Shown here: in pieces, positions 167 through 21,649 of the stretch
Numbering within the stretch: position 1 is the stretch's first letter
Layout of the letters: every line of letters starts with the position of its first letter
Assembly: GCA_944391085.1 (NCBI GenBank)
Contig: CALXSE010000006.1
Span: 1-64,000, forward strand
Source: an uncultured Kiritimatiellota bacterium
Lineage (GTDB): Bacteria > Verrucomicrobiota > Kiritimatiellia > RFP12 > DVOR01
Length of the DNA: 64,000 nucleotides
Direction: 5' to 3'
Translations under genes and position numbers: made by a program
Notes under the pieces: model-generated
Seen by the model: only the letters and a program-made list of their open reading frames with translations
Told to the model about the DNA's origin: nothing
Databases searched by the model: none

Positions 167-175
167 TGCTATACT
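167..175 (+). promoter_or_regulatory. Extended -10 promoter (TGC-TATACT) for leader RNA and membrane protein
   Basis: TGC followed by TATACT at 170-175 matches the extended -10 used throughout this window (TGnTATAAT). No good -35 is visible. The predicted transcription start is about 181-183. The same promoter form (TGC-TATCCT) stands at the same place before the homologous element at 21641-21649, so promoter and RNA are conserved together. Confidence 0.6.
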
Positions 176-181
176 TGCGGC

Positions 182-362
182 ACGTCATGGGAGAGCCATG
201 ACCTTTCGCTTCAGCGAACAAGGTTGCTTACTTCGAAACTTAGGAACTTTCTTTGGTCGAGCAACGTGTTGGCGAAGCGTGCCGTTTTGGCGCGCCTTCT
301 TTTCACGTACCTGACCATGGGCTTCCTAAGGCCTCGAAGTGGGTTGGAAAAGGAGGCGTGCC
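182..362 (+). ncRNA. Candidate structured leader RNA, copy A (SD-sequestering form)
   Basis: This untranslated leader aligns over its whole length with the minus-strand leader at 21634-21445. Visible helices are: a 7-bp hairpin 184-190/196-202 with pentaloop GAGAG; a hairpin 205-209/214-218; a bulged stem GTTGC 223-227 plus TCGA 233-236 pairing with TCGA 257-260 plus GCAAC 261-265, with a 5-nt bulge TTACT; and a conserved single-stranded stretch ACGTGTTGGCGA at 264-275. Two exclusive hairpins follow. GAAGCGTGCC 274-283 can pair with 289-299, or 289-304 can pair with 347-362 in 16 bp including two G-U pairs. The second state covers the Shine-Dalgarno AAGGAGG (350-356) of the gene at 366. Stems differ in sequence but keep pairing between copies. 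The regulatory function and any ligand are inferred; I recognise no known riboswitch class. Confidence 0.65.
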
Positions 363-365
363 TTT

Positions 366-2294
366 ATGGGCGGCAAATGGAAGGTCTTATGGGATGTCTG
401 TGGAAGCATGCGCCGATGCGTGGGAACGCATCGGGACGGGTTGCGTGAAGGCGCGCGGCTGGCGGGGCGGGCCATCCTCGTCTTTCCGGTCGCCGTGACG
501 GTCTTGGCGTGGGCCGCGTTCCTGTTTGGGGGCCGGTGCGCCGCGTGGCAATGGTGGCTCGCCCTCTGCGGGACGCTCGCGTGGGTCTGGCTTCGGGGGA
601 AAACCCGGCGGCGGGGCGCGCTGGGGGCGGCGGCGTTCCTGGGGTTCCTGGCGGCGCTCTGGGTCTGCGCGGGGGCATTCTGCACGTTGGCCTGGAACGA
701 CTATGTGGGCTATCACCTCCCCGCGATGCGCTTGCTCGTCGAGGGCTGGAACCCCGTCTGGGCCGGGACCGGCGAGGCTCTGGCGGCGACGATGGGGATC
801 GACCCCTGGGAGATGCGCCTCTGGCATGTGCTCGCCATGCCGAAGAACGTGTGGGTGTTCAACGCGGCGGCCTATTCGTTCTTCCGGATGCCGATGGCGT
901 TGCCCTACCCGATTGTGGGGTTCCTCCTCGTGTCGGCAACCGTCCAGGTCTGGGGGTTCCTGAGGCACGCGCACTGGGGATGTCGGCTCGTGGGCGTGGT
1001 CGCGGCCTGGGCGTTCGCGCCGTCGGGGATGTTCGCGGTCGTGGACTGCGTGACGGCGCTGGGGGCGTTCGGCCTGCTGGCCGGGATGGGGCGGGCCTTG
1101 AACGGGGAACGGCCGGATTGGACGGCGCTGGCGGCCCATTCCTTCTGGATGATGACGGCCAAACAGCCCAGCCTATGGGCCTGCTTCCTGGCGTGGTGCG
1201 TCTTCTCCTGCGCCTGGCTCTGGCTGAACAGGGCGGACGCCCTGGGCGCGGCCAGGCGCCTTTTCTGCCTTGCGGCGGCGCTCGGCGCGCTCTTTTGCGT
1301 GACGGGGGTTTCCCCCTACGCGACCTCCTGGCGACACTTCGGCCACCCCTTCTACCCGAAGTACACGGCGGATGAGGCGCGTTTCCCCGTCCAGGACATC
1401 ACGGCGGACTTCAAGTTCGGCAACGCGGACGCCTTGGCGATGGGCCACCTCGGCAACTTCGTGAACGCCTACGTCAGCCGGACCCTCGCGGGCTGGTATT
1501 ACACCAGGAAGCTGGGGCAGGCGGAGTTCTCCCCCTGGCGCCCGACATGGGAGCAATCCAGCGCCGAGCCTGCGCCCTTTGGGCTCAAGCGGCGGACGGC
1601 CCTGCAGCTGGCGTTCATCCTGGCCCTCCTCTTCGGCAAACGGACGGAACGCCTGCTGACCGTGATGGTCGCCTTGCCGCTCATCCTCGTCCCGACGGAA
1701 ATGATGGGGTACCTTCGCTATTTCCCCGGCACGTCATTCCTGTCGCTGATTGCGTTCGCCGCGCTCGCACGCCTCGGCGCCCCGCAGGCCAGGAGGATCG
1801 GGCTGACGGCGGCGACCCTGTCGTTCGCCCCCGCCATCCTTCTCTCTTTCCTCTGGCTGACCTCGCTGATCGAGACCGCCTATGCCGTCGAGAAAACCCT
1901 GGATACGGCTCCCCCGGGAACCGTCTGCGCGCGAGGCGTCAACGGCAGCCCAAACGCCCCCGCCCTGGTGAAGGCCTCCGGGGAGAGGACCCGGACCGCC
2001 TTCTGCAACCTCCGCCTGCTCTGCCGGCAGGAACCCAGGCTGCGGGCCGCGGCCATCCACGACCCCAAGCGGTGCACGGCGGCATGCGACGCCTACGAGG
2101 CCTTCTTCCACAACGCGGAATTCGCCGTCCCGCCAGGGACGCTGGACCAAACGGTGGACTGTTACACGGCGAACACCAGGAACCCGAGCCGGGCGGCCCG
2201 GTGGCTCAACTATCCGCGCGTCCTCGCGAAGGTTTGGCTGACCCACTTCCCCATGCTGCTCTCACAGCGCCTCCGCGCCCTGGCCTCCCCCTGA
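366..2294 (+). CDS. Polytopic membrane protein, possibly GT-C-type glycosyltransferase-like
   Basis: The product is about 642 residues with many hydrophobic segments separated by short loops, and a mostly soluble Cys-rich C-terminal part (around residues 510-600). The first large loop contains NDYVGYHLPAMRLLVEGWNP, which resembles the first periplasmic loop of GT-C lipid-sugar-dependent glycosyltransferases, although no family signature is conclusive. I chose the ATG at 366 over the in-frame ATG at 339 because AAAAGGAGG at 348-356 is correctly spaced for it. That ribosome site is the 3' arm of a long hairpin in the leader RNA, so translation is probably controlled by RNA folding. It stands alone on this strand, followed by a tandem repeat and a convergent operon. 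The exact function is unknown. Confidence 0.7.
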   Translation: MGGKWKVLWDVCGSMRRCVGTHRDGLREGARLAGRAILVFPVAVTVLAWAAFLFGGRCAAWQWWLALCGTLAWVWLRGKTRRRGALGAAAFLGFLAALWVCAGAFCTLAWNDYVGYHLPAMRLLVEGWNPVWAGTGEALAATMGIDPWEMRLWHVLAMPKNVWVFNAAAYSFFRMPMALPYPIVGFLLVSATVQVWGFLRHAHWGCRLVGVVAAWAFAPSGMFAVVDCVTALGAFGLLAGMGRALNGERPDWTALAAHSFWMMTAKQPSLWACFLAWCVFSCAWLWLNRADALGAARRLFCLAAALGALFCVTGVSPYATSWRHFGHPFYPKYTADEARFPVQDITADFKFGNADALAMGHLGNFVNAYVSRTLAGWYYTRKLGQAEFSPWRPTWEQSSAEPAPFGLKRRTALQLAFILALLFGKRTERLLTVMVALPLILVPTEMMGYLRYFPGTSFLSLIAFAALARLGAPQARRIGLTAATLSFAPAILLSFLWLTSLIETAYAVEKTLDTAPPGTVCARGVNGSPNAPALVKASGERTRTAFCNLRLLCRQEPRLRAAAIHDPKRCTAACDAYEAFFHNAEFAVPPGTLDQTVDCYTANTRNPSRAARWLNYPRVLAKVWLTHFPMLLSQRLRALASP

Positions 2295-16688: not shown

Positions 16689-19600
16689 TCAGGGCGCGAA
16701 GGGCGGCAGGGCGTCGATGAGGCGGAGGCTGTCGAGCGAGAGGGTCACCAGGCGCTTGACGAGGTCGGGGATGTGGCGCGGGTTTTCCGGCGCCCACAGA
16801 TTCGGGTCTTTGACGATGCCGCTCTTCGTGTCGGTGCTAATCTGATAGCGGTCGACCGCCCAGTCCAGGGGGCTGCGCCCGTTCACCTGGTAGCGGAAGG
16901 CCTCCTCGGGGATGCCGCGCAGCGTCAGCGTGCCGTTGACGACGAGGGTGGAGCGGTCTTTGCCGCCCTTCCCGCCGAAGCGCATCTTGACGATGCGCGT
17001 GTCGGAGAAGTCCCCCACCTCCTCCAGCGGGTAGGGTTTCAGCGCCTCGTAGTTCAGATGGAGCGCGGCCAACTGCCGCCCGATGTCGGCCGTCCGCCTG
17101 AAGTCCTCGCCGCGCCCCGCCAGCGGGATACGCGGCAGGGACTTCTTCAGGTTCGCCGCGAAGGCCTTCCGATAGCCCGGCTGGTGGAGGAAGCCATAGA
17201 CGTAGTAGAAAATCTCCTCCTTCGTCACCTCCGCCCCATACCGCCGCCGCGCCTGATCCAGAATCCAGTCGCTCACCCCGTCGTGCCGCACCAGCGTCCG
17301 CTTCCCGAAGAGGTCGACGTCCTTCTCCTCATACCAATACAGCGGGAAACATTGGCTCTTGCCGATGAACTCCAAGTCTGGCGTGATGTCCGTTACCAGA
17401 CAACTGAAGTCTTTCGTCACCCCCACGCCGCTCACGCAAATCACCACATTCTCCCCGCGCTCCCCCGTGGGGAAGAGTTTGGGGATTTGGTAACGACGCT
17501 GGTTCCACTTCTTGTCGTAATAGAGCCACTGGTTACTGAATGGACGAAACGCGGCCATGCGCACCTTCTCGTCATGGAAAGCGACTGTTTCTCCCATGAG
17601 TTTTGTCATTGTTGTTTGCAAGAAGTCCTTCTTGAATTGATAACATGAGGCATCTGCACCACTCTTGAGTCCACTGCTATTGACGACAAAGAAGCTTTGC
17701 CCCTCGGCGAATTTCTTCCCCGGCTCAAGTGGGATATAGGCGGCGAAGGTGTCGTTGCGTTGGTTGATCCAGTCGCCGTGGGCGTCGGGGGAGAGGGTCT
17801 GGGCGCCGTCGAGCCATTCCTTGGAGAGGAAGGAGCGGTACATGATGAGGTCGTGGAGTTTCTCCTCGCGGGTCTTGTAGTCGCCGATGTCGCGGTAGTG
17901 GATGGCGGCGTTGCCGTGGTGTTGGCCGTCGGGCAGGCGGACAAGGAGGAGGATGGAGATGGGTGTACGGCTTCCCTCGCCGAAAAGACCGTCACCCTCA
18001 CGTTTACGAACTTCTCCAGAGGTATTGCAATTCCCACGGAGATTATAGCAGTAGATTTCGTCGAACTCGCGGACGAGGCATCTCCGGAAACCGGCACCTG
18101 AGCCGGTGTCAAGCCACCCGCCGTTGGTGATGAAGCAGAGGATCCCGCCGCGCTCATTTTCGATGAGGTCGGAGGACCAACGGAAGGCTTTGATGTAAGA
18201 ATCGTAGAGGGAGTTCTTGTTGGTGGCGGTGGAGTTGGCAACGTAGGTTTCCTCGACGCGTTTTTCGAGGGCGGGGTAGGCCTCGCCCTTGGCGACGACA
18301 TAAGGCGGGTTGCCGACGATGACGGAGATGGGGGCGTTGTTTTGGGCGAGGATGCGCTCAGAGTTCTCGGCGAAGGCGCCGTCGTCCAGGAGGTCGCCGG
18401 GCTTGACCTGGCGCATGCGGAAGGTGTCGGCGAGGACGATGCCGGGGAAGGGGGCGTATCTTTCCTTGCGCCCGGCGCGGTCGTGGAAGACGTTCTCGAT
18501 GTTGACGGCGGCGATGTAGTAGGAGAGGAGGACGATCTCGTTGGCGTGGAGCTCGGCGGCGTATTTGCGGTAGAGGTCGGCGTCGCGGATGAGGGCGAGG
18601 TCTTTCTGGAGGAGTCGGGCGATGAAGGTGCCGGTGCCGGTGAAGGGGTCGAGGATGTGGACGCCCCTGTCGGAGAGGCGGCGGCCGAAGTGGGCGCGGA
18701 GGGCGTCGTCGGCGGAGCGGAGGATGAAGTCGACGGCCTCGATGGGGGTGAAGACGATGCCGAGCTTATCGGCGATGCCGGGGAAGGCTGCGGCGAAGAA
18801 GGTGTCGTAGAGGGTGCGGATGACCTCGAGCTTGCCGTCGGCGCTCCGGATGTCGCCGACGCGGGTTCGGACGTCCTCGTAGAAGTTTTTGAGGGTCTTG
18901 CGGTCTTCGGGGGTGTCGAGGGCGTCGAGGAGGTCGGCGGCGGAGTCGAGTGCGTGGGAGACGGGGTTGTGGGCGGTGAAGCCGTTGGCGCCGAAGAGGG
19001 CGTCGAAGATGGGGCCGGTGAGGCGCTGCTGGACGAGCATGACGCGGGCGTCCTCCTCGGAGACGGCGGCGTAGACGGCGGTCTGGAGGAGTGCGTGGAA
19101 GCGGCGGAAGGCGTCGGCGGCCCTGGGGTCGGCGTCGCAGCGGGCGCGGAGGGCGGCGGTCTGGCGGGCGGCGATGGCGGCAACGTCGGCGGCCCAGCGC
19201 TCGAAGTAGGCGCGGTCGCCGCATTTCTCGACGATGCGGCCGTAGAGGAGGTGGCGGTATTGCTCCAGTTTCTCGGGGATGCGGAGGTCAAACTCGCCCT
19301 GCACGAGGTTTTCGCCGCCAGAAGGCGCGCCGCCCTCGTCGTCGAGCCCCGTGCTGATGGTGATGGCGGGGGGCTCGTCGTCGCCGGGGGCATCGATGAT
19401 GGGCCCGTCGTCGCCGGGGATGGGGGCGGTGGGGTCGATGGTCTCGGATTTGGTGCGGTCGAAGCGGAGTTTGTTGATGGTGGCCTCGAAGCGCTCGTCG
19501 TGGGCGCGCAAGGCGTTGAGGACGGTCCAGACGACGCCGAAGGTGTCGGAGTCGTCGAGGACGGCCTCGGGGGATTTGCCGGCGGGGACGACGACGGGGA

Positions 19601-21410
19601 TGACGATGTAGCCGTAGCGTTTGCCGGGGGCCTTGCGCATGACGCGGCCGACGGATTGGACGACGTCGATCTGTGAGTTGCGGCGGGAGAGGAAGAGGAC
19701 GGCGTCGAGGGAGGGGACGTCGACGCCCTCGGAGAGGCAGCGGACGTTGGTGAGCAGGCGGCAGCCGTCGCCGGCCCCGGCCTTGAGCCAGGAGAGGGCG
19801 TTGCCGCGGTCGAGGGCGCCCATGGCGCCGTCGACGTGCCGGGCGTCGACGCGCAGGGGGGCGTTGAAGCGGGGGTCGGCGGCGAAGCGCCGGAAGAGCG
19901 CGGTGGTGGCCCGGGAGGTCGCGATGGTGCGGCAGAAGGCGACGGCGCGGCGGGCGGGGACGCCGTCGGCGGCGGTGAGGAGGGGGGAATCCGTGAGGCG
20001 CTTGGCGAGGGCGTTGATGCAGCCGAGGAGCTTGACGGCGGTGGTGCGGCCGTCGTCGTTCCGGGATTCGAGGGCCTTGCGCTCGGCGTCGGTGAGGGCG
20101 TCGTAGGGGGAGTCGCCCTCGGGGAGGCTGTCCTCGGGGAGGGTGAGGACGAGGACCTTGTAGTCGGCGAGCCAGCCGTCCTTGACGGCCTGTCCGAAGC
20201 CGATGCGGTAGAAGACCTCGCCGTAGAGCGCGGGGTCGTCCATGGAGCAGATCTGGATGGAGGCCTCCCTGGCCTTTGCCTTGGCGGCGGGGGCGTAGAG
20301 GCGCGGGGTGGCGGTCATGTAGAGGCGGCGGCGGGCAAGGAGGTTGGCGTCGCTGTGGATGCGGACGAAGGCGGGCTCCTTGACGTCGATGGCGCCGGTG
20401 GTGCGGTGGGCCTCGTCGCAGAGGGCGAAGTCGAAGGCGAAGGCCTCTCGGCCCAGTTCCCGCTGGGCCTGTTCGACGGCGCCGATGGATTGGTAGGTGG
20501 AGAAGACGACGGTGAGGTCGCCGGGGTGGGCCGCGCGGAGGGCGCGGATGCGCGCGGCGATGGCCTTGGCGTCGGTGGTGGGCGGGAGGGCGAGGGAGTT
20601 TGGGTTCGCGTCGGGGGCGTCGTCGTCGCTTCCCCGGCGGTGGGCCTTGGCGTCGGAGCAGACGCAGACGGCGCGGAGGGGGCGCGCGGCGTCCTCGCTC
20701 CAGGCGATGAGGGTTTGGTTGAGGAGGGCGATGGAGGGGACGAGGAAGAGGGCAAGGCCGCCCTGCGGGCATTCGTTCTCCAGGATGCGCAGGGCGGTGA
20801 GGGTCTTGCCGGTGCCGCAGGCCATGATGAGCTGGCCTCGGTCGTGGGCGGCGAAGTGTACGTGGGCGGCGTCGCGCGCGGCCTCCTGGTAGTCGCGCAG
20901 GGGGCGCGGCCGGACGAGGGGGCCGTCGGCAAGACCGGCCAGGACGGCCCAGTCGACCGCCCACCCGTCCATCTCGGCGCGCGTGATGAGCTGGACGGGG
21001 ATGGCCCAGCCCACAAGGGTGGCCTCGGCGTGCGGGCCCCAGGCGTCGGTGGAGGCGAAGACCATGCCGTGGTCAAAGGCGCGCGGGGCGCCGTGGAAGG
21101 GGACGGCCTTGCCGAGGGTGGCCAGGAAGGTGTCGACGTCGGGCTTGGAGACGGCGTGGCCCTGGGCGTAGCATTTGGCCTGAATACCATAGAGTTTGCC
21201 GAAGACGTCCTCGGCCACCAGGTCGATGCCGACGTCGTGCCCCCAGCCGAGCTCATTCCAGTGCCACACGTGGCGGAAGCGGCCGCGGTAGACGGGGGCC
21301 CGGAGGAGGATGTTCTTGACGAGCGCCTCGAAGGCCGCCCCCATGGCCGCAAGGTTCCCCTGCGCCTCCTCGCGGAAGCGCGCCAACACTTCATCCAACG
21401 TCATGCCCAT
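16689..21410 (-). CDS. Type ISP-like single-chain restriction-modification enzyme (nuclease-helicase-methyltransferase)
   Basis: The product is 1573 residues, the usual size for LlaGI/LlaBIII-type enzymes. In order: an Mrr-like nuclease domain with D63 and QAK 77-79 (GIDLVAEDVFGKLYGIQAKC); a superfamily 2 helicase with ACGTGKTLTAL near 198, CDEAHRTTG near 332 and QSVGRVMRK; an N6-adenine methyltransferase with DPFTGTGTF near 920 and NPPYVVAKG near 1033; and a C-terminal target-recognition region. Such enzymes methylate one strand of an asymmetric site and translocate to cut unmodified DNA. ATG 21410 is preceded by GGAGA; the frame stays open much further upstream but only through the leader RNA and opposite-strand genes. 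Parts of the recognition region (about 17330-17720 and 17985-18060) are AT-richer than the rest. Expression is probably controlled by the attenuator-like leader. Confidence 0.9.
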   Translation of the reverse strand: MGMTLDEVLARFREEAQGNLAAMGAAFEALVKNILLRAPVYRGRFRHVWHWNELGWGHDVGIDLVAEDVFGKLYGIQAKCYAQGHAVSKPDVDTFLATLGKAVPFHGAPRAFDHGMVFASTDAWGPHAEATLVGWAIPVQLITRAEMDGWAVDWAVLAGLADGPLVRPRPLRDYQEAARDAAHVHFAAHDRGQLIMACGTGKTLTALRILENECPQGGLALFLVPSIALLNQTLIAWSEDAARPLRAVCVCSDAKAHRRGSDDDAPDANPNSLALPPTTDAKAIAARIRALRAAHPGDLTVVFSTYQSIGAVEQAQRELGREAFAFDFALCDEAHRTTGAIDVKEPAFVRIHSDANLLARRRLYMTATPRLYAPAAKAKAREASIQICSMDDPALYGEVFYRIGFGQAVKDGWLADYKVLVLTLPEDSLPEGDSPYDALTDAERKALESRNDDGRTTAVKLLGCINALAKRLTDSPLLTAADGVPARRAVAFCRTIATSRATTALFRRFAADPRFNAPLRVDARHVDGAMGALDRGNALSWLKAGAGDGCRLLTNVRCLSEGVDVPSLDAVLFLSRRNSQIDVVQSVGRVMRKAPGKRYGYIVIPVVVPAGKSPEAVLDDSDTFGVVWTVLNALRAHDERFEATINKLRFDRTKSETIDPTAPIPGDDGPIIDAPGDDEPPAITISTGLDDEGGAPSGGENLVQGEFDLRIPEKLEQYRHLLYGRIVEKCGDRAYFERWAADVAAIAARQTAALRARCDADPRAADAFRRFHALLQTAVYAAVSEEDARVMLVQQRLTGPIFDALFGANGFTAHNPVSHALDSAADLLDALDTPEDRKTLKNFYEDVRTRVGDIRSADGKLEVIRTLYDTFFAAAFPGIADKLGIVFTPIEAVDFILRSADDALRAHFGRRLSDRGVHILDPFTGTGTFIARLLQKDLALIRDADLYRKYAAELHANEIVLLSYYIAAVNIENVFHDRAGRKERYAPFPGIVLADTFRMRQVKPGDLLDDGAFAENSERILAQNNAPISVIVGNPPYVVAKGEAYPALEKRVEETYVANSTATNKNSLYDSYIKAFRWSSDLIENERGGILCFITNGGWLDTGSGAGFRRCLVREFDEIYCYNLRGNCNTSGEVRKREGDGLFGEGSRTPISILLLVRLPDGQHHGNAAIHYRDIGDYKTREEKLHDLIMYRSFLSKEWLDGAQTLSPDAHGDWINQRNDTFAAYIPLEPGKKFAEGQSFFVVNSSGLKSGADASCYQFKKDFLQTTMTKLMGETVAFHDEKVRMAAFRPFSNQWLYYDKKWNQRRYQIPKLFPTGERGENVVICVSGVGVTKDFSCLVTDITPDLEFIGKSQCFPLYWYEEKDVDLFGKRTLVRHDGVSDWILDQARRRYGAEVTKEEIFYYVYGFLHQPGYRKAFAANLKKSLPRIPLAGRGEDFRRTADIGRQLAALHLNYEALKPYPLEEVGDFSDTRIVKMRFGGKGGKDRSTLVVNGTLTLRGIPEEAFRYQVNGRSPLDWAVDRYQISTDTKSGIVKDPNLWAPENPRHIPDLVKRLVTLSLDSLRLIDALPPFAP

Positions 21411-21444: not shown

Positions 21445-21522
21445 AAAAAAGGCGCGCATCCTTTCACGTATTCATCGGAGGCTTGCGACGGCCTAGAATC
21501 CACACGTGAAAGGAGGCGCGCC
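21445..21522 (-). terminator. Intrinsic terminator inside the leader of the type ISP gene
   Basis: The arms GGCGCGCCTCCTTTCACG (21522-21505) and CGTGAAAGGATGCGCGCC (21468-21451) form a stem with one internal mismatch, followed by TTTTTT (21450-21445). It lies 34 bp before the ATG of the gene it precedes, so it must be read through or prevented from folding for expression. The upstream GAGGCGCGCC at 21539-21530 is the competing strand. Confidence 0.75.
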
Positions 21523-21634
21523 AAATGACGGCGCGCCTCGCCAAACACGTTGTCGGATTCATAGAAGGTCGCAATTTCCGATGAGACAACCTGTTTGCGC
21601 AAAGCGCAATCAAACCGCGGCTCCCCCGCGGCGT
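21445..21634 (-). ncRNA. Candidate structured leader RNA, copy B (terminator form)
   Basis: This minus-strand leader of the restriction gene is homologous to 182-362. It keeps the hairpin with purine pentaloop (CCGCGG 21631-21626, GGGAG, CCGCGG 21620-21615), the second hairpin (TTGCGC/GCGCAA 21609-21595), and the bulged stem (GTTG 21590-21587 plus TCGG 21581-21578 with CCGA/CAAC 21556-21549). It also keeps the single-stranded ACGTGTTTGGCGA. GAGGCGCGCC (21539-21530) can pair perfectly with GGCGCGCCTC (21522-21513), or 21522-21505 can pair with 21468-21451, an 18-nt arm with one mismatch followed by six T. These are the antiterminator and terminator states of an attenuator. Its reading frame is not conserved with copy A, so it is not coding. 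Confidence 0.65.
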
Positions 21635-21640
21635 GCCCAT

Positions 21641-21649
21641 AGGATAGCA
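21641..21649 (-). promoter_or_regulatory. Extended -10 promoter of leader RNA copy B
   Basis: On the minus strand TGC precedes TATCCT (21646-21641), placing the transcript start at about 21634. The position relative to the RNA is identical to that of the promoter at 167-175. The remaining bases up to about 21760 are GC-rich, and I see no gene in them. Confidence 0.55.

Follow-up and report, generated by a model that had tools for sequence, protein, structure and literature searches.

Terminator/antiterminator riboswitches are 5′ leaders in which conserved loop residues lie between variable helices and two mutually exclusive hairpins have one strand in common; a U-run follows the second hairpin, and a Shine–Dalgarno sequence is sometimes buried in it. 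Surface-polysaccharide operons are classic antiterminator targets, and the LoaP-type leaders, the ops element of RfaH and the EAR element of eps operons are processive antitermination leaders of such genes. Genomes contain c-di-GMP riboswitches in large numbers, placed before genes related to the cell surface.

The leader RNA described here has each of the riboswitch features just named, but it has no match in Rfam 15, its strands change partners along the entire RNA, giving either two hairpins or one long arm, and it reaches 36 matches in a single genome of about 2 Mb. With the LoaP, RfaH and EAR leaders it shares a position before surface-polysaccharide genes; it is, however, a different RNA with its own terminator-like hairpin in each leader, it also serves restriction-modification and PEP-CTERM genes, and its genus lacks a second NusG. 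Its many copies before surface-related genes recall c-di-GMP riboswitches, from which it differs by the missing Rfam match and by the absence of GGDEF proteins. We consider it likely that the leader is a bistable cis-acting attenuator RNA of a class not represented in Rfam, with, by inference, fold B as the off state and fold A as the ON state. The attenuator is probably a riboswitch, which remains unproven because ligand data are lacking and an RNA-binding protein is possible instead.

Two homologous leaders in the window

Two covariance models were used, R1 built from 13 aligned copies and R2 from 79 sequences. Within the window, i.e. the whole 64-kb stretch of DNA analysed, R2 found exactly two copies, at positions 179–366 on the plus strand (copy 1; 145.6 bits, E = 8.8 × 10−38) and at 21447–21637 on the minus strand (copy 2; 160.0 bits, E = 1.3 × 10−41), and the third-best match reached only 15.1 bits and lay antisense over copy 2. 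The original prediction, made without database searches, had proposed a pair of homologous leaders with similar promoters at these sites and on these strands, and the model scores bear this out. As the computation shows, the copies are homologous end to end, including an extended −10 element, which reads TGCTATACT in copy 1 (167–175, plus strand) and TGCTATCCT in copy 2 (21641–21649, minus strand). A TG(C/T)TA...T element is found a few bases 5′ of GGCACG in all 13 of the first-aligned copies. Indels break the reading frame between leader copies. When folding was compared with shuffled sequences, the two leaders gave z-scores of −4.9 and −6.8, and for neither leader was any of 200 shuffles as good.

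Copy 1 begins with hairpin P1, which carries a GAGAG loop (185–201; supported by fold-A covariation and a z-score of −17.4), followed by P2 and P3a (205–228); P2 forms its own hairpin in fold A, and in fold B P2 and P3a are partnered by P3b and X. The 5′ side of the long arm (229–260), with an invariant AA and UU, comprises segments a (229–238), b (239–247), j3 (248–253) and c (254–260). P3b and X span 261–283. Y (289–310) is the shared strand, being the partner of X in fold A and of Z in fold B. Segments c′, b′ and a′ make up the 3′ side of the long arm with an invariant GG and CC (311–341), and the last part (342–366) consists of Z with a buried Shine–Dalgarno sequence (AAAAGGAGG) and a short U-run leading to the ATG at 366. 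The parts of copy 2 follow in the same order on the minus strand: P1 (21631–21615), P2 (21609–21595), P3a (21592–21586), a-b-c (21585–21554), P3b (21553–21549), X (21548–21530), Y (21522–21502), c′-b′-a′ (21501–21471), Z (21470–21452) and the U-run (21451–21447).

Three of these helices had already been named from the two copies alone, namely P1 around GRGAG, P2 as TTCGC/GCGAA and P3 as GTTGC/GCAAC, and all three are present. ACGTGTTTGGCGA, which had been taken for a conserved single strand, is indeed conserved; it is not simply single-stranded, because it forms the start of X, whose partner in the alternative fold is P2/P3. The same correction applies to the conserved GUGUUUGGCG, which belongs to the X segment. 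The long-range helices a:a′, b:b′ and c:c′, the strand exchange among X, Y and Z, the terminator-like 3′ hairpin enclosing the Shine–Dalgarno sequence and the family of about 30 in the genome had not been foreseen.

The genes behind the two copies are of different kinds, as had been proposed. Copy 1 precedes a membrane protein of 642 amino acids (366–2294, plus strand) without a Pfam or NCBIfam match, which by eye resembles the products encoded behind two other copies of the genome (C9:17007 and C26:2640; common motif YH.P..RLL..GWN). Copy 2 precedes a type ISP restriction-modification enzyme of 1573 amino acids (16689–21410, minus strand), whose gene starts 36 nt past the RNA and whose product matches PF18135, PF22240, PF13156, PF04851 and PF07669.

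Size, distribution and novelty of the family

BLAST searches of the genome to which the window belongs, with one copy as query, found others, and a dozen were found with a second copy as query. In this 1.7-Mb genome R1 detected 29 strong copies and R2 30, with a sharp gap in the R2 scores from 50 bits to 20 bits; the copies are mutually about 70–76% identical. A covariance-model search of related genomes had been suggested as a check on the original prediction, and it revealed further homologues across genus, class and phylum. All but one of the 17 genomes of the genus contain the RNA, with the maximum of 36 matches given above, and it is present in at least 120 of 288 genomes and at least 42 of 113 genera of the class, and in at least 96 of 388 genomes of the phylum, at least 27 of which lie outside the class. 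The class and phylum figures are lower bounds, since only six to eight candidates per genome were scored. The window's genus includes Candidatus Spyradenecus faecavium, as a contig under this name has a copy that agrees in contig coordinates and in sequence with that of a genome of the genus (G001). NCBI places this genus under Lentisphaerota, while other matching records bear the name Kiritimatiellaeota.

No evidence for a phage or plasmid origin was obtained from a pattern search of IMG/VR or from INPHARED and PLSDB, all of them narrow tests. Over their 5′ half, which extends from the −10 element as far as segment b, two neighbouring copies (C4:2776–2969 and C4:4208–4406) are identical, and they are fully divergent in the remainder, which suggests a duplication or gene conversion confined to the 5′ part.

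The class had not been recognised when the leaders were noticed, and even a relaxed E-value limit did not reveal it in Rfam 15: none of the 4227 families matched the window copies up to E = 10, and none matched distant members. The scans returned only chance matches of the microRNA type and a short fragment of a cis-regulatory family. On a contig of a relative, a sub-threshold match to 6S RNA was seen on the minus strand (L157:1995–2143; 38.8 bits against a cut-off of 46.4). In the open-licence literature we found no paper on PEP-CTERM together with riboswitches, nor on structured RNAs or riboswitches in Kiritimatiellae. Judged by Rfam 15 and the open literature, the family is thus apparently undescribed, and its architecture and copy number are unusual; its general kind, a bistable attenuator resembling a riboswitch, is known.

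Fold A is a long arm with two invariant internal loops

In fold A, segments a, b and c, located 3′ of P3a, pair with c′, b′ and a′ between Y and Z, and X:Y forms the tip. Over 81 distinct rows of the alignment all 40 pairs of fold A (P1 and P2 included) vary on both sides, 94.1% of the cells are paired and 935 cells are compensatory. The covariation score was 0.746, compared with 0.229 for shuffled alignments and 0.08–0.13 for slid partners. Because the alignment itself had been fitted to fold A, we added a less alignment-dependent test, in which the pairing energy of each segment with its own partner is compared with its energy with the corresponding segment from other copies. Among 65 non-redundant copies this gave z-scores of −29.4 (a:a′), −26.5 (c:c′), −15.9 (b:b′) and −13.4 (X:Y), with none of 5000 permutations as good in any case; across tests the values ranged from −29 to −35 for a:a′, from −27 to −32 for c:c′ and from −13 to −16 for X:Y. 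The mismatched controls X:Z, c:a′, a:c′ and c:Z gave z-scores of about 0. The preference for the cognate partner was also evident within the single genome (29 copies), in other genera and with 85 copies. The covariation that had been called for as a check is therefore strong and holds against controls.

Outside the 3′ tail, the near-invariant unpaired bases are AA, UU, GG and CC(U), which form two internal loops, AA/CC and UU/GG. These flank helix b within the one arm that a, b, c and X:Y build by stacking. These invariant loop bases resemble an aptamer, and we infer that the likely signal, being placed on fold A, acts as an inducer.

Fold B exchanges the strands and ends in a terminator-like hairpin

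In fold B one hairpin is formed by P2-P3a and P3b-X and a second by Y and Z, as opposed to the one long arm plus P2 of fold A; fold B is the best predicted fold of both window copies. Although Y:Z, P2:X and P3 were absent from the models used for alignment, Y:Z reached z-scores of −20.7 and −24.3 in two tests, and [P2 P3a]:[P3b X] reached −17.7, which holds inside and outside the genus. On the fold-A alignment only 75% of the cells of Y:Z and P3 are paired, partly because it was not fitted to them. An earlier idea that P3 is a pseudoknot inside the aptamer was dropped, as P3 extends into P2:X in fold B with covariation.

Computation shows that both sets of helices covary and that they compete for Y, at least six bases of which (median 14 of 21) are common to the X:Y and Y:Z hairpins in each of 85 copies. 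An expression platform of the riboswitch kind has to be mutually exclusive, and this one is, Y being engaged either in X:Y or in Y:Z. Since Y:Z and the long arm cross in sequence, complete formation of both at once is unlikely. The computed energies are nearly equal: the means are −77.8 kcal/mol for fold A with Z free and −75.1 kcal/mol for fold B, the folds lie within 8 kcal/mol of each other in 64 of the 85 copies, and fold A is lower in 58 copies and fold B in 27. Before Z is made, fold A is far better (−77.1 versus −49.0 kcal/mol). All these values are nearest-neighbour estimates that leave out tertiary contacts.

Of the five bases after Z, a mean of 4.0 are T (85 copies), and this U-run makes Y:Z a terminator-like hairpin. 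Being long, GC-rich, conserved and covarying, and followed by the U-run, Y:Z has what is expected of an attenuator with an intrinsic terminator. In 16 of 29 own-genome copies the U-run and an ATG are only a few bases apart, and the Shine–Dalgarno sequence is then usually part of Z, so that Y:Z would also hide the ribosome site. Because the U-run of copy 1 is short (CCTTTATG), the block at this copy may be translational.

Genes behind the leaders

As its sequence context shows, the leader stands directly 5′ of same-strand genes, the position required of a leader, and the recurring unit is the promoter plus the RNA. Behind 13 own-genome copies the same-strand gene encodes a PEP-CTERM protein (VPEPTALALLALGVAGVALRRRAA; TIGR02595, NCBIfam), and one further copy precedes an apparent pseudogene; among the 13, the copy at C1:64772 is set apart from its gene by an additional poly-G promoter. 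The other targets in this genome are genes for GtrA proteins, glycosyltransferases, an acyltransferase, an FrhB-like protein and large membrane proteins as well as, for DNA modification, an EcoRI-type methyltransferase and the type ISP enzyme. In other genomes EcoRI-type methyltransferases appear repeatedly, along with other N6 methylases (D12, Eco57I and N6_N4 types included), GT2 and MBOAT proteins, lipoproteins, and HTH and secreted proteins. The recurrence of EcoRI-type adenine methyltransferase genes behind the leader extends over several genera. An intact-looking leader precedes a truncated PEP-CTERM gene at C13:59839–60021, and another, at C7:61822–62007, precedes an acyltransferase gene whose frame changes shortly past the start.

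A regulon restricted to PEP-CTERM genes was rejected, since 13 of the 30 PEP-CTERM C-termini of the genome are encoded behind a leader and 17 elsewhere, and about half of the leaders serve other genes. In 16 upstream regions of the leaderless PEP-CTERM genes no model match exceeded 11.4 bits with filters off. Many of these genes have a promoter in which a run of at least eight G (or C) adjoins a TTGAC-like −35 element before a TATTGT-like −10 element; judged by its sequence, such an arrangement is typical of promoters that phase-vary by slipped-strand mispairing.

Discussion

We propose the following working model, which is inferred, in the absence of data on expression, probing or ligands. 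The long arm of fold A, with its two invariant loops, would be a stack of helices a, b and c with X:Y; Z would be free and the gene would be ON. In fold B, P2 and P3a would take P3b and X, and Y would take Z to give an intrinsic terminator; where a start codon follows directly, Y:Z would also bury the Shine–Dalgarno sequence, so that either transcription or translation may be stopped. The internal loops would bind a signal, a small molecule or a protein, that favours fold A, and this signal would co-induce genes for surface proteins, polysaccharides and restriction/methylation. Because the regulon is mixed, there is no single obvious ligand. The ydaO covariance model of the c-di-AMP riboswitch gave no match in the Rfam scans. 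A c-di-AMP cyclase, common in bacteria, is present in 15 of the 17 genomes of the genus, and c-di-AMP as ligand is not excluded.

The proposal that a dedicated RNA-binding protein, an antiterminator, rather than a small molecule holds fold A is possible, though we regard it with some doubt. The invariant loop bases could equally be a binding site for a protein or a pocket for a ligand, and the surface-polysaccharide genes behind the leader are of a kind classically targeted by antiterminators. The best-known type of such proteins is, however, absent: one NusG match was found in each of 15 of the 17 genomes and none in two incomplete ones, without a LoaP-, RfaH- or UpxY-like paralogue, and an unsystematic look at the genes beside the copies revealed no conserved regulator gene.

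We find it unlikely that the copies are free-standing small RNAs whose 3′ end is the Y:Z terminator and which merely happen to have genes behind them. A promoter-like element of their own, a length of about 190 nt and the terminator-like 3′ end would agree with this, but the same-strand genes stand directly behind, 13 times just after the RNA with a PEP-CTERM product, and in more than half of the own-genome copies the start codon is only a few bases from the U-run, usually with the Shine–Dalgarno sequence inside Z. For a small RNA a terminator alone would suffice, whereas the conserved alternative between X:Y and Y:Z is the design of an attenuator.

There is very little to be said for the idea that the leaders are repeats of a mobile or recombining cassette which acts through its structure at the DNA level, for instance in promoter exchange, and not as a regulatory RNA. 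Promoter and leader do recur before unrelated genes, and the two neighbours on contig C4 share an identical 5′ half; yet copies that are only about 70–76% identical have kept their pairing through hundreds of compensatory changes, the loop residues are strand-specific and invariant, and U-run and Shine–Dalgarno sequence are correctly placed. A variant c-di-GMP riboswitch, as the glycan and secreted-protein genes behind the leader might suggest by their resemblance to c-di-GMP regulons, is largely refuted and scarcely worth entertaining, because GGDEF domains were detected in none of the 17 genomes of the genus (all eight control genomes were positive) and no Rfam family matches.

Returning to the bistable attenuator, a wider reading, for and against which we see equal weight, is that it represents a new Verrucomicrobiota/Lentisphaerota riboswitch class, which senses a signal other than c-di-GMP, works by strand exchange of the whole RNA and switches on an envelope and DNA-modification regulon that comprises, in one small genome, as many as about 30 genes (for PEP-CTERM proteins, glycans and restriction-modification). 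Orphan leaders that covary strongly are rarely found, and about 30 copies in a 1.7-Mb genome together with phylum-wide relatives are exceptional. As both folds are kept in every copy while the variable helices drift independently, the family is also a study system for RNA strand exchange. If there is a ligand, its identification would indicate a signalling pathway other than that of c-di-GMP. In the leader, a gut lineage with hardly any genetics gains a global regulator of its surface coat and its restriction systems that can be put to the test.
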